Assembly: GCA_016875735.1 (NCBI GenBank)
Contig: VGOW01000022.1
Location: 1 to 54,256 of the forward strand
DNA length: 54,256 nucleotides
Direction of reading: 5' to 3'
From: Chloroflexota bacterium
GTDB taxonomy: Bacteria > Chloroflexota > Anaerolineae > Anaerolineales > VGOW01
In this document: positions 23,268 through 51,618 of the stretch, in pieces
Layout: every line of letters begins with the position of its first letter
Numbering within the stretch: position 1 is the first letter of the stretch
The notes under the pieces: generated by a model
What the model was told of the DNA's origin: nothing
Seen by the model: the letters and a program-made list of their open reading frames with translations, nothing else
The model's database searches: none
Position numbers and translations under genes: made by a program

Positions 23268-24728
23268 TCACCCCACCCCCAGCCGATCCCATAGCGCATC
23301 GATCTTCTGTTTCGTCGCTTCGTCCATTCGCGCCACGTCGGGCCAGCCGCGCTCGTAGCCTTCGCCCGGCCCTTTCGCCGTCGCGTCGATGCCGATCTTC
23401 CCGCCGAACGATTGGCGATACGAAGCATGATCGAGTTGATCCACCGCGCCGTCAACATGAACCACATCGCGGCCCCAATCCACATTGCCCAACGCCTGCC
23501 ACGCCACTTCGTTGTAGTTATGCGCGTCCACCCATTCATCCACCACCACGATTGCCTTCGTCAGCATCATCAGGCCCAACCCCCAAATGCCGAACATCAC
23601 TTTGCGCGCGTGGCCCGGATACCGCTTGCGAATCTTGACGATGACTAAATTGTGGAACACGCCCGCGGGCGGCATGTGGTAATCGATCACTTCGGGCAGG
23701 AAGAGGCGGAGCAAGGGCAGAAACAACCGCTCGGTGGCTTTGCCGAGATACACATCTTCCACTGGCGGCACACCCACAATCGTCGTCGGATAGATCGCCT
23801 CCCTGCGCCGCGTGATGGCCGTGACGTGAAAGACCGGGAACGGCTCCGCCGGAGTGTAGTATCCGGTGTGATCGCCGAACGGCCCCTCCATCTCGCGCTC
23901 ATTCGGATCAACGTAACCCTCGATCACAATCTCCGCGTTCGCCGGAACTTCGAGCGGCTGGCTCACGCACTTCACGAACTCCACCGGCTTGCCTCTCAGC
24001 CACCCGGCCAGCAAATACTCGTCGATGTTCGGCGGCAGAGGGGCGCTGGCGCACCACATCGAGGCCGGGTCGCCGCCCAACACCACCGCCGCCGGGATTT
24101 TCGCCTCGCCCGCTTTGCGCTCGTGTTCGGCGCCGTCTTTGTGCAGCTGCCAGTGCATCGCTAACTTTCGCTCGCCGAGAACTTGCAGGCGATACATCCC
24201 CACGTTGCGCGCATTCGTCACCGGGTCGCGGGTGATCACTTGCATCAGCGTGATGAACCGCCCGGCGTCGCCCGGCCAGCATTTCAGAATCGGCAGCCCA
24301 TCGAGAGTCGGGGCGCCTTTCTCGATCACCTCCTGAACCGGCGCGCGGCTCACTATGGTCGGCCCCACCCCGATCCCTTTCAGCACGTTCAGAAAATCCA
24401 TCCCCCGCTCGATCATCGGCCCCAAACTTTGCGGCAATCGAAAATCCACCAACTTCGCCAGCCGATGGTTCAACTCTTCGAGATCGTCCACGCCCAGCGC
24501 CGCCGCCATCCGCCGCTCGGAGCCGAACAAATTGATCGCCACCGGAAACGATGAAAAGCCCTGCACATTCTCGAAGAGCAGGGCTTTGTTTTTTTCCGCC
24601 GGGCCTTTCATCACCCGGTCGGCAATCTCTGTGATTTCTAAATCGCGCGATACCGGAGTCTTGATGCGGGCTAACTCGCCCCGTTCCTCGAGCAGATCGA
24701 GAAACTCGCGCAAATCCTTGAATGCCAT
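23268..24728 (-). CDS. ubiD: UbiD-family prenylated-FMN decarboxylase (menaquinone type)
   Basis: The protein is 486 residues. The N-terminus MAFKDLREFLDLLEERGEL is standard for UbiD. The catalytic Arg lies in the RDPVTNARNVGMYR segment, and the two Glu residues lie in DPNEREMEGPFGDHTGYY (about 280-297). UbiD enzymes remove the carboxyl group from a prenylated aromatic ring and need prenyl-FMN made by UbiX, which is not in this window. The start ATG 24728 has GGAG upstream. It is first in the cluster behind a good promoter; the next genes (ubiA, menG) perform neighbouring steps. Confidence 0.93.
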   Translation of the reverse strand: MAFKDLREFLDLLEERGELARIKTPVSRDLEITEIADRVMKGPAEKNKALLFENVQGFSSFPVAINLFGSERRMAAALGVDDLEELNHRLAKLVDFRLPQSLGPMIERGMDFLNVLKGIGVGPTIVSRAPVQEVIEKGAPTLDGLPILKCWPGDAGRFITLMQVITRDPVTNARNVGMYRLQVLGERKLAMHWQLHKDGAEHERKAGEAKIPAAVVLGGDPASMWCASAPLPPNIDEYLLAGWLRGKPVEFVKCVSQPLEVPANAEIVIEGYVDPNEREMEGPFGDHTGYYTPAEPFPVFHVTAITRRREAIYPTTIVGVPPVEDVYLGKATERLFLPLLRLFLPEVIDYHMPPAGVFHNLVIVKIRKRYPGHARKVMFGIWGLGLMMLTKAIVVVDEWVDAHNYNEVAWQALGNVDWGRDVVHVDGAVDQLDHASYRQSFGGKIGIDATAKGPGEGYERGWPDVARMDEATKQKIDALWDRLGVG

Positions 24729-24760
24729 CCTGTCTCCACTTGTAATAAAGTTCAGGGGCA

Positions 24761-24788
24761 ATTATACCAATCGCGCTCTCACTTTCAA
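24761..24788 (-). promoter_or_regulatory. Promoter of the ubiD cluster
   Basis: On the minus strand TTGAAA (24788-24783), 16 bases, then TGG-TATAAT (extended -10; hexamer at 24766-24761). It gives a leader of about 25 bases with a GGAG site. It is back to back with the C39-gene -10 box at 24793. Confidence 0.85.
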
Positions 24789-24792
24789 TGGA

Positions 24793-24798
24793 TATAAT
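24793..24798 (+). promoter_or_regulatory. -10 box of the first C39-like gene, leaderless
   Basis: TATAAT followed by six bases and the ATG at 24805. No good -35 is present at the usual distance. The spacing places the transcript start at the start codon. Confidence 0.65.
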
Positions 24799-24804
24799 GC
24801 GCTC

Positions 24805-26043
24805 ATGCGTAAATGGATCACAATCACGGTTGCCGCGCTCGGCCTCGCCGCAGTTGCGGTTTGGAAATACGATTCGATTCGATGGCAGGCTCATCAATTG
24901 AGAGGCTTTCTGCTCGACCTTCGGAACACGGGCGGCGATACCCTGCCCACACCAGTACAAATTCAAACTTCAAACTTCAAATCTCAAACCCCGGTCGCCC
25001 AACCACCCAACCATCCAGCCACCCAACCCGCTGACGCGAACCACCTAACCACCCAACCACCCAACTACCCGGCCACCCAACCACCGATCATCGTTGCCAC
25101 TCCGTCTCCATCCGTCACCTTCGATCCGCCGAAATGGGAGAAGCAGGGAATCAACAACTGTGGCCCGGCGACATTGGCGATGTATTTGCGCTTCTACGGT
25201 TGGCAGGGAGATCAAAACGACATTGCCCGCGTGGTGCATCCGAACGAGAAAGATAAAAACGTGCGCTGGGACGAATTGGTGTATTACGTGAAAACGCACG
25301 CGGGCTGGCTCGACGCGCTCTTCCGCGTGGGCGGCACGGCGGACAAACTCAAACTTTTTCTCGCCAACGGCTACCCCGTCGTCATCGAAACGGGTTACGA
25401 ACTCCCGGATGTTGGCTGGGTGGGCCACTACTTGCTCATCACCGGCTACGACGACGCCGAAGGCGTATTCATCGCCCAAGATGTCACCGCTGGAGCAAAC
25501 CAACGCGTGCCCTACGAGAAGATCGATCAATACTGGCAGCAGTTCAACCGGCTGTACATCGTCGTCTTCCCGCCCGCCGACTCCGACATGATCAACGCCC
25601 TGCTTGGCGACGACGCCGACGAAGCCGCCAACCGCCAGCGCGCGCTCGAAACCGCGCAATCGGAAGTGGCCGCCGATCCCGAAAACCCTTTCGCCCACTT
25701 CAATCTCGGCTCGAACCTCAACTACTTTGATCGTTACGCCGAAGCCGCCGATGCCTTCGACACTGCGCGCGAACTCGGCCTGCCGAAGCGAATGCTGTTC
25801 TATCAATTTGGCCCATATCGTTCATACTTCAACATGGGCCGCTATAACGACGTGATTGACTTGAGCACCTTCACCCTCGACTATCGCCCCGACCTCGAAG
25901 AGTCGTATTTTTGGCGCGGCTGGGCCGAATACATGCTGGGCGATTCGAACTCCGCCATCGCCGATTGGCGCAACGCGCTCGGCATCAACCCCACCTTCAA
26001 CGACGCGCAAACAGCATTGGAAAGCGTGGGGGCGGGGCCGTGA
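24805..26043 (+). CDS. Exported C39-like cysteine peptidase with TPR domain (first copy)
   Basis: The protein is 412 residues. An N-terminal hydrophobic anchor (about 4-22) precedes a low-complexity Thr/Gln/Pro/Asn linker (about 50-105) whose DNA is a string of short repeats. The C39-like domain has the catalytic Cys in INNCGPATLAMYLRFYGW (about 120), His in VGHYLLITGYDD (about 210) and the acidic residue in FIAQDV. A TPR-like tail follows (about 285-410; NPFAHFNLGSNLNYFDRYAEA). C39 domains of this kind cleave or bind peptides; no transporter is fused. The paralogue lies 13 bp downstream. Its target is unknown. Confidence 0.85.
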   Translation: MRKWITITVAALGLAAVAVWKYDSIRWQAHQLRGFLLDLRNTGGDTLPTPVQIQTSNFKSQTPVAQPPNHPATQPADANHLTTQPPNYPATQPPIIVATPSPSVTFDPPKWEKQGINNCGPATLAMYLRFYGWQGDQNDIARVVHPNEKDKNVRWDELVYYVKTHAGWLDALFRVGGTADKLKLFLANGYPVVIETGYELPDVGWVGHYLLITGYDDAEGVFIAQDVTAGANQRVPYEKIDQYWQQFNRLYIVVFPPADSDMINALLGDDADEAANRQRALETAQSEVAADPENPFAHFNLGSNLNYFDRYAEAADAFDTARELGLPKRMLFYQFGPYRSYFNMGRYNDVIDLSTFTLDYRPDLEESYFWRGWAEYMLGDSNSAIADWRNALGINPTFNDAQTALESVGAGP

Positions 26044-26049
26044 GATAAT
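26044..26049 (+). promoter_or_regulatory. Possible -10 box of the second C39-like gene, leaderless
   Basis: GATAAT, then seven bases, then ATG (26057). No -35 hexamer is convincing. The spacing equals that of other leaderless starts in this window. Confidence 0.45.
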
Positions 26050-26056
26050 TCCCCAA

Positions 26057-27376
26057 ATGCGCCGCCCTCAACTCCTCGCCCTCTCAGCCCTTGCCGCGCT
26101 CGCCCTGTGCCTCGCGGTGGGCATCGCCATTTACAACATCCCCACGGTCAACGATCGGCTGTATCCACGCATCGACCGATTCATCAGCGGCATTCGTGAA
26201 GTGATCGCCCCCGCGCCCGAAACGGTGCCCACTGCCGCGCCCATTGCTAATCTGCCTACCTTTGCCCCCGCTCCAACTCAAACTCCAAACTTCAAATCTC
26301 AAACTCCAAACCCAACCACCCAACCACCCTCCCCAACCCTCATCCCCATCGTTTACGAACTCCCGGCCAGCATCTCCCTCAGCGGCGCGCGCTACGAGCC
26401 GCAGCTCTACAACAACTGCGGCCCGGCCACCCTCACCGCCGCGCTCGTGTATTGGGGCTGGCGCGGAGCCGAGCCCGATCCCGATAACGACCTCACGTGG
26501 ACTCATCTCGAAGATGTGCGCTGGCAAAGGGAAGTAGCCGCCGCCATCAAACCGAAGCAGAGCGACAAAAACGTGATGCCCTACGAGCTCGGCAACTTCG
26601 CCGAAGAATACGCCGGGTTGAAATACATCATCCGCTACGGCGGCGATGTGGATATGATCCGCCGCTTCGTCGCCAACGGCTTCCCGGTGATCATCGAGCG
26701 CGGGTTTCGAGAAGAGGAGCACGGCCAGAGCGGCCAGGGTTGGGAGGGGCACTACGGCCTCATCACCGGATACGACGACAGCGCCCGTCGATTCATCACG
26801 CAAGATTCGTTCAAGGGCGTGAACTACGTTCGAGATTACGATCTCGTCGTCCGCGATTGGCGCGACTTCAACTATCTTTACCTCATCCTGTATTCGCCGG
26901 ATCGCGAGTCGGAAGCGCTGGCCCTGCTCGGCCCCGATGCCGATGTCACCGCCAACCTCAACAACGCGCTCGTCAAAGCGCAGGCCGAAGCCGCGCAATC
27001 CACCGACCCCGCCGATCTCGCCTTCGATTGGTTCAACGTGGGCACATCACTGCAACTGCTGGGGCGCAACGACGATGCCGCGCTGGCATTCGATCAGGCG
27101 CGCAGTTACAACACCTTGCCCTATCGCATGTTGTGGTATCAAACTTTCATGTACAAAGCCTACTTTTACAGCGAGCGCTATCAAGAGGTGATCGACCTTG
27201 CCAATGTGACTCTGCAGACGCCGGGACTCGAAGAGAGCCACTATTGGCGCGGCTGGGCCCATCACGAATTCGGCGACCTCGACCGCGCCGCCGCCGATAT
27301 GCGCGCCGCCCTCGACGCCCACCCCGATTGGGATCAGGCGCTGAGCGTGCTGGCAGAGTGGGGAGTGTCGCCGTGA
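26057..27376 (+). CDS. Exported C39-like cysteine peptidase with TPR domain (second copy)
   Basis: The protein is 439 residues with the same layout as the gene upstream: a signal-anchor helix (about 6-27), a repeat-derived linker (about 70-95, with TPNFKSQTPNPTTQPP), a Cys motif YNNCGPATLTAALVYWGW (about 120), His in EGHYGLITGYDD (about 232), and FITQDSF. The C-terminal TPR-like tail contains LAFDWFNVGTSLQLLGRNDDAALAF and EESHYWRGWAHHEFGDL. The domain has two short insertions relative to the first copy. The pair probably arose by duplication and may act on different peptides. Confidence 0.85.
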   Translation: MRRPQLLALSALAALALCLAVGIAIYNIPTVNDRLYPRIDRFISGIREVIAPAPETVPTAAPIANLPTFAPAPTQTPNFKSQTPNPTTQPPSPTLIPIVYELPASISLSGARYEPQLYNNCGPATLTAALVYWGWRGAEPDPDNDLTWTHLEDVRWQREVAAAIKPKQSDKNVMPYELGNFAEEYAGLKYIIRYGGDVDMIRRFVANGFPVIIERGFREEEHGQSGQGWEGHYGLITGYDDSARRFITQDSFKGVNYVRDYDLVVRDWRDFNYLYLILYSPDRESEALALLGPDADVTANLNNALVKAQAEAAQSTDPADLAFDWFNVGTSLQLLGRNDDAALAFDQARSYNTLPYRMLWYQTFMYKAYFYSERYQEVIDLANVTLQTPGLEESHYWRGWAHHEFGDLDRAAADMRAALDAHPDWDQALSVLAEWGVSP

Positions 27377-27410
27377 GCGCCTGCGCCGGAATAGTTCCAC
27401 AGCGATCACT

Positions 27411-27647
27411 GTCAACGAATAAGCCAACGAATGAACGAATTCGCCGCGCCGCCTTCATTCGTTGTAACTGCTCACGTATCTAGCATCCTGAGCGGAGCGC
27501 CGACGCTTTTCGGCGCGAAGTCGAAGGATGCGGATCGCTACGACACTCGCGCTCTTCGACTTCGTTCCGCAAAAGGCGCGGAACTTCGCTCAGAGCGCTT
27601 GACCTGTGAGCGGCTACCATTCGTTTATTCGTTGAACATTCGTTGAC
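27411..27647. repeat. Nested palindromic element with 29 bp imperfect terminal repeats
   Basis: The left end 27411-27440 is GTCAACGAAT followed by two more ACGAAT units; the right end 27619-27647 is its near-complement. Inside is a second imperfect palindrome of the CTGAGCG...CGAAGTCGAAGG type (about 27487-27600). No ORF is convincing. The layout is that of a MITE or a REP-type mosaic. Flanking 27377-27410 shows nothing else. Confidence 0.7.
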
Positions 27648-27661
27648 AACGAGCCTGAGAG

Positions 27662-27667
27662 TATAAT
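27662..27667 (+). promoter_or_regulatory. -10 box of the candidate structured RNA
   Basis: A perfect TATAAT. A TTGACA lies only 13 bases upstream (27643-27648), inside the palindromic element's right end, which is too close for a normal promoter. Initiation near 27674 is inferred. Confidence 0.5.
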
Positions 27668-27673
27668 CAGCAC

Positions 27674-28060
27674 GTCGCAGATTGAGTCGCGGACAGACCC
27701 TCAAATCAAACTTGCCCTATGTCAGATCATGCTCCCCCTGCGAGGGCTCACCGGGACGAACTGCGCGGCGGCGCGTGGAACAACAACGGCTTTCGGGTGG
27801 TGTCGGCGTCCCATGCCTCTCAGCGAGCGCAGACGGGCAGACACTTCGTGTCTGAGGTCTACATGCCAGCGGTGTGCTCTCTGTTCACCCTGTCGTTTGC
27901 CCTGCGGGCAACCGCAGGGCGAGCGGTGGACAGAAGCCGAGGCCCTAAGAGAGACAGCCCGGTGAAGCCCTGCCTTGCCGCAAACACGGCGAGGCGAATA
28001 CAGAATAGCCCCGCTCCCTCCGGTAGTTCGCAAGATCGAAAGTTGGAGCGGGGCGCTTGA
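27674..28060 (+). ncRNA. Candidate structured non-coding RNA upstream of murJ
   Basis: There is no protein-like frame here, yet several strong helices can be drawn. GGGCTCACCGGG (27744-27755) pairs with CCCGGTG-AGCCC (27958-27970) with one bulged A, enclosing about 200 nt. Inside, CTGTTCACC (27881-27889) pairs with GGTGGACAG (27925-27933), capped by GCCCTGCGG-GCAA-CCGCAGGGC (27899-27920). A hairpin CAGACAC/GTGTCTG is at 27838-27854. After the closing stem comes GCCTTGCCG/CGGCGAGGC (27972-27995), and a 10 bp stem at 28008-28054 ends the region. I could not match it to RNase P, tmRNA, SRP or 6S RNA from their conserved motifs. The ends are estimates. Confidence 0.5.
28008..28054 (+). terminator. 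Possible terminator stem ending the structured RNA
   Basis: GCCCCGCTCC (28008-28017) pairs exactly with GGAGCGGGGC (28045-28054) across a 27-base loop. The downstream GCTTGATTCTCTAATTCT is T-rich but not a clean run. A formulaic CTCTAATTCTCCAATTCT repeat (28062-28080) follows, up to the murJ start. Confidence 0.45.
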
Positions 28061-28083
28061 TTCTCTAATTCTCCAATTCTCGA

Positions 28084-51390: not shown

Positions 51391-51406
51391 GCGAAAGCGA
51401 ATCAAA

Positions 51407-51444
51407 AAGTCTTTACGCCCTCGGCCCGCTTCGCGTAAAGACTT
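51407..51444 (-). terminator. Attenuator in the rplJ leader
   Basis: AAGTCTTTACGC pairs perfectly with GCGTAAAGACTT (12 bp) and is followed on the minus strand by TTTTTGATT. It lies between the L10 leader and rplJ, where L10 binding is expected to control read-through. Confidence 0.85.
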
Positions 51445-51500
51445 TCGCGCACGTGTCGTGCTCACCGCCTCCATCGCACGGATGCGGCGCGTTTCGAGAG

Positions 51501-51558
51501 TCTTCACCTCGGCAGGATGTTTAAGCCCGGCGGGGCTCCTGCGGTCTACGGCGAAGGC
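51501..51558 (-). ncRNA. L10 leader (ribosomal protein L10 binding RNA)
   Basis: The minus-strand RNA reads GCCGTAGACCGCAGGAGC, CCCGCCGGGCTTAAACATCC, TGCCGAGGTGAAG, closely matching the conserved core of the rplJ leader family (CCGUAGACnGCAGGnnC ... GCUUAAnnnCCUGCCGAGG). L10-L12 binds this kink-turn RNA and lowers expression of rplJL. Positions are approximate at each end. Confidence 0.88.
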
Positions 51559-51560
51559 AA

Positions 51561-51618
51561 CCCCTCACCCCTCCCCCCTTTGTGAAACCCCAAATGGGGG
51601 AGGGGCAGGGGTGAGGGT
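51561..51618. repeat. Palindromic repeat between rplA and the L10 leader
   Basis: CCCCTCACCCCTCCCCC is mirrored by GGGGGAGGGGCAGGGGTGAGGG around CTTTGTGAAACCCCAAAT. It is the same CCCTCACCC...GGGTGAGGG family as inside 30626-30748. Confidence 0.85.

Follow-up and report, generated by a model that had tools for sequence, protein, structure and literature searches.

A structured RNA upstream of murJ in a Chloroflexota bacterium is very probably a stranded template RNA of a diversity-generating retroelement, with a scaffold absent from Rfam

The spacer upstream of murJ on contig VGOW01000022.1 of a Chloroflexota bacterium (assembly GCA_016875735.1; the whole stretch of 54,256 nt analysed here is called the window) raises the question of what kind of RNA it holds, since a sequence-only reading had proposed a separate, undescribed RNA gene or a long structured leader of murJ. 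As argued below, this stretch is very probably a template RNA of the type used by a diversity-generating retroelement (DGR), a bacterial system for the deliberate mutation of its own genes, and represents a stranded relic copy that is most likely non-functional. Folding of about 330 nt (27735-28060) is far above that of shuffled sequence: the predicted energy of 27672-28066 was -180.2 kcal/mol, compared to -155.2 (sd 6.5) in dinucleotide shuffles (z -3.86), and none of 100 shuffles was as stable. All the helices named beforehand were recovered (Table 1), including the 12-bp long-range pairing H1, which contains one bulged A and has pair probabilities of about 1.0 except for one pair (0.5) beside the bulge. 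Pair probabilities of the terminal helix H4 are also near 1. H2 is a double stem, in which a 9-bp stem (27881-27889/27925-27933) lies beneath the GCAA-capped one, and in homologues this hairpin is flanked by GCCrGnAnTGC...GCCGAGGC.

Table 1. Features of the murJ-proximal structured stretch (window coordinates).
Feature	Coordinates	Strand	Basis or remark
TATAAT box, putative promoter	27662..27667	+	no -35 at usual spacing
Orphan copy, very probably of a DGR template RNA: template-repeat remnant and the scaffold flanking it	27725..28060	+	homologues in 26/201 genomes and at 63/80 DGR-RT loci
5' arm of H1, the long-range helix around the template repeat	27744..27755	+	pairs with 27958-27970
Template-repeat (TR) remnant LRGGAWNNN-GFRVVSA, mutable core of 9 nt instead of 72 nt	27761..27808	+	nine complete-core homologues
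H2 hairpin region (TGCCAGCGGTG...GAAGCCGAGGC), enlarged in window copy	27864..27943	+	flanking motifs common to homologues
GCAA-capped 9-bp stem, tip of H2	27899..27920 (27899-27907/27912-27920)	+	predicted fold
H1 3' arm	27958..27970	+	pairs with 27744-27755; arm-swap permutation tests
H3 hairpin, 9 bp	27972..27995 (27972-27980/27987-27995)	+	81.9% of cells paired, 6 modelled pairs
Conserved linker CGAATACAGAATAGCC	27995..28010	+	almost all homologues carry a AAATACAGAATAGCC-like sequence
H4, terminal 10-bp helix with large loop	28008..28054 (28008-28017/28045-28054)	+	98.1% of cells paired

Two further statements of the sequence-only reading stood only in part. The TATAAT box is present but lacks a usable -35 at normal spacing, the sole good one (TTGACA, 27643-27648) being 13 nt from it, and a promoter scan of the region found no sigma-70-type site. 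The stretch had also been described as free of any protein-like frame; a 113-aa frame at 27719-28060 indeed has no Pfam match, but it bears LRGGAWNNNGFRVVSASH, a template-repeat remnant. Motifs of this type are a hallmark of the ends of those FGE-sulfatase/C-type-lectin proteins in which DGRs diversify the C-terminus, and LRGGAWNNNGFRVVSASH is therefore a clue to the identity of the RNA. Within the stretch, LRGGAWNNNGFRVV corresponds to a remnant of a template repeat encoding the end of an FGE/C-type-lectin variable protein; from about 27761 the frame reads LRGGAWNNN-GFRVVSASH, with landmarks common to homologous TRs, and the structured scaffold then follows. A search of the stretch with the Rfam covariance models, which could have made the RNA a known family, gave none above its gathering score, and relaxed thresholds returned merely chance or microRNA-like hairpin matches. 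RNase P and tmRNA, already thought absent, have no match in the stretch and are encoded elsewhere in the genome, on contigs C7 and C61, respectively. Elsewhere in the window, a ribosomal protein L10 leader (RF00557, 48.1 bits) was found at 51394-51569 on the minus strand. The proposal of a separate, undescribed RNA gene is consequently to be divided: the RNA is genuinely structured and its scaffold is absent from Rfam, but its kind, DGR template RNA, is already known.

Comparison with relatives supports this identity. By blastn, the template-repeat motif was matched in many of 101 related genomes; in G003, of the same genus, one locus matched both the motif and the structured 3' block (80% identity), and the match to contig C99 of G003 spans TR motif and scaffold with an E value of 3e-25. 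A covariance model of the 3' scaffold (R1; nine seed sequences including the window copy, with only H3 and H4 paired, 16 pairs) was run on 201 genomes of the order and detected the RNA in 26. The compensatory changes that had been proposed as a check on the named helices are numerous in the long-range helix H1 and the terminal helix H4, and flanking the TR covariation was observed in H1, H3 and H4. In 12 hand-anchored homologues, cognate H1 arms paired with a mean of -19.5 kcal/mol versus -12.1 for swapped arms, none of 200000 permutations being as good, and at least 10 of 11 pairs were kept with different bases in 11 of the 12 sequences. The result held out of sample, with 26/200000 permutations as good for 15 new RNAs and 0/100000 for 61 more. 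An earlier duplex test of H1 on loose 95-nt segments had been noisy (578/100000 permutations), and the anchored arms were used instead. The H1 tests are free of model bias, because H1 lies outside R1. For H3 and H4, the alignments are fitted to R1 and so biased towards the model: on 27 R1 matches, 90.3% of cells were paired, with 102 two-sided changes against 28 in shuffles, and on 64 matches from loci fetched by RT these values were 92.2% and 251 against 61 (0/500 shuffles), slid controls dropping to 38-49% pairing. Two-sided changes affected five of the six modelled pairs of H3 and all ten of H4 in the latter set.

The association with DGR genes was examined at 80 loci fetched from named genomes using the reverse transcriptase (RT) sequence alone. 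R1 recognised the scaffold RNA at 63 of them, on the RT strand in 61, usually less than 130 nt upstream of the RT or 450-700 nt downstream of it, after avd. At 37 of the 63 loci, several of the others being cut by contig ends, the sequence directly upstream of the RNA is an adenine-specific template for a second repeat within the fetched DNA, mostly with zero non-A mismatches. RT loci with the RNA occur in Chloroflexota, Thiothrix (on a plasmid of an isolate), KSB1 and others, although some metagenome-bin labels may be wrong. Among the first 101 genomes, at a threshold of E <= 1e-26 for a DGR-type RT, 11 carried both RNA and RT, 4 the RT only, 2 the RNA only and 84 neither (Fisher p 6e-10). 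Mismatches between TR and variable repeat (VR) fell on 15/27 A and 0/94 non-A positions in G003:C99, 18/29 and 0/86 in G070, 15/29 and 0/86 in G010:C153, and 17/23 and 2/64 in G084. Some relatives have the order FGE target, RT, avd, adenine-rich template repeat and structured block, and others the order target, avd, template RNA and RT. The small ORF of these loci is Avd: it scores above the cut-off of PF22296 (bAvd) and below that of NF033474, and it matches PDB chain 8ub7_B, named Avd; the best PDB match of the RT is 8ub7_A, from the same entries.

Not every cassette includes an RT. At loci L150, L151, L153, L159, L034, L036 and L037, a target gene and template RNA were found with no RT in the fetched flanks, and for the RT-less cassettes of G131, G070, G078 (contig C26), G003 (C99) and G002 (C59) an RT is encoded elsewhere in the genome, which suggests that such cassettes are served in trans. 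In G003, contigs C99 and C47 (the ends of L034 and L035) overlap at the tail of the template RNA and are probably contiguous; a nadD-like gene follows.

The copy in the window departs from this pattern. Between the same landmarks, the core is exactly 72 nt long in 9/9 complete-core homologues versus 9 nt here; the missing 63 nt amount to 21 codons, a loss that recombination between AACAACAAC repeats would produce and that probably arose in this way. No significant match to RT, Avd or FGE coding was found within the window, and neither avd nor a target gene stands beside the template RNA. A genome search with the 3' end of the TR (up to two mismatches) found no second place that could be its VR; the adenine-specific TR/VR differences are those of the homologues, the window copy having no matching VR in its own genome to score. 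The sole RT detected in the genome is a 195-aa fragment on contig C8 that ends before IGNLTSQ and YVDD, and no intact RT with the (I/V/L)GxxxSQ and YxDD motifs is present among the detected genes of this 97.8% complete genome. A second scaffold RNA copy lies on C8 (E 8e-13 to 8e-14) and, together with the truncated RT, indicates two DGR relics in the genome. The C8 relic (L050, G000:C8, 3-1739) comprises an FGE target gene, then the RT, which is truncated at NRPR and seems to be joined to a template-repeat end, and then the scaffold RNA.

It could still be argued that the window copy is a short but working template RNA, used in trans by an RT that the assembly has missed to diversify an unrecognised target. 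The relatives listed above, with template RNA beside a target and the RT elsewhere, offer a precedent; H1 and H4 are intact, and the perfect H1 is surprising for an old relic; moreover, the assembly, at its stated completeness, is divided into 150 contigs and could have missed an intact RT or target. Against this, the only RT detected is truncated, the core is 63 nt short, the TR 3' end is unmatched elsewhere in the genome, and the C8 target gene ends differently, in RCSR. We consider a working copy unlikely, and a non-functional relic remains the most likely status of the RNA.

A structured 5' leader regulating murJ fares worse. The RNA is on the murJ strand and ends 23 nt before the start codon, but a leader would be expected at a conserved position, and the orthologous junctions of C39 peptidase and murJ in the same-genus genomes G002 and G003 measure about 70-100 nt and lack the RNA, versus 707 nt in the window; in addition, its homologues adjoin RT, avd and FGE genes. 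On this synteny the leader was rejected, and we regard it as very improbable. A MITE-like inverted-repeat element lies beside the RNA (27482-27617), and a query of 27378-27724 gave 37 matches in the same genome, mostly to this element and up to about 92% identical; speculatively, the element, which lies in the same spacer, may have helped the rearrangement. Upstream, at 24355-27376, two adjacent genes with C39-like peptidase domains and TPR repeats are probably a tandem duplication. Finally, a new small RNA of an unrelated kind, housekeeping or regulatory, or a spacer that folds by chance, would agree with the strong folding and the lack of an Rfam match, but its probability is negligible against the blastn match to G003:C99, the R1 match (E 3e-26, the window copy being one of nine R1 seeds) and the covariation of the helices, and the RT association and adenine-specific repeats rule it out.

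Among known systems, the DGR of Bordetella phage BPP-1 (bRT and Avd; PDB 8ub7 series) is similar in placing a structured RNA segment after the template repeat, in its homologous RT and Avd, and in adenine-specific transfer to a target with a C-type-lectin fold. Unlike in BPP-1, the RNA described here is often placed after RT and avd, and it can be remote from the RT; in the window copy the core is deleted and both genes are absent. Membership of BPP-1 in the same RNA family was not supported by R1, which reached at best 2.4 bits at its DGR. Also similar are the DGRs of multicellular bacteria such as Thiohalocapsa PB-PSB1, for which the available part of the published account reports FGE-type CLec targets, incomplete loci, targets served in trans, and MITE-like repeats near the loci (PMC10907252); that part describes loci, RTs and targets, but no covarying scaffold RNA family. 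Template RNAs of the same order (G003:C99, G002:C59 and G084:C256) share the scaffold and also lack an adjacent RT. Unlike the window copy, with its 9-nt core and no target, they have an FGE target gene just upstream, and their templates match it apart from adenine-specific changes.

The relatives display the template repeat, the covariation of the scaffold, the association with RT and Avd, and adenine-specific transfer. In working elements of this clade, a transcript very probably carries the TR, which copies the end of an FGE/C-type-lectin variable gene without being translated; the TR is bracketed by H1 and followed by a scaffold of H2, H3, the AAATACAGAATAGCC linker and H4. H1 may position the template by joining its two flanks. 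For BPP-1, the structured RNA is reported both to recruit RT-Avd and to prime the synthesis of cDNA (PMC12875486). By analogy, the scaffold would bind RT-Avd and prime a cDNA that extends into the TR; mutated at adenines, this cDNA would presumably take the place of the target gene's variable repeat. Such a transfer of the mechanism is based on which genes are present and how they are arranged, and not on homology of the RNAs, because R1 misses the BPP-1 spacer. The window copy now lies apart from RT, avd and target; the spacer that holds it is short in sister species, and 63 of the 72 nt of its core are lost.

The general finding is a conserved RNA architecture unregistered in Rfam, for which no claim of being undescribed in the literature is made. 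RNA flanking the template is reportedly essential in the only DGR for which the complex is solved. More tentatively, and with somewhat less than an even chance of being right, the scaffold may be an undescribed RNA architecture of a broad DGR clade (Chloroflexota, Gammaproteobacteria and others), in which the template is enclosed by a long-range helix and the RNA closes with a fixed 10-bp helix. It may behave as a portable module: cassettes of target and template RNA that lack an RT would be scattered over the genome, depend on a single RT acting in trans, and now and then become stranded, as in this window. The bracketing helix could be tested directly as a template-positioning element. For this genome, a hypermutation fossil takes the place of the supposed new RNA gene or murJ leader. 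For the family, a model of 16 pairs built on nine sequences recognises the RNA at roughly four out of every five RT loci in the clade as well as at RT-less loci, so DGR templates could be found independently of the RT, and remote and orphan cassettes could be counted.
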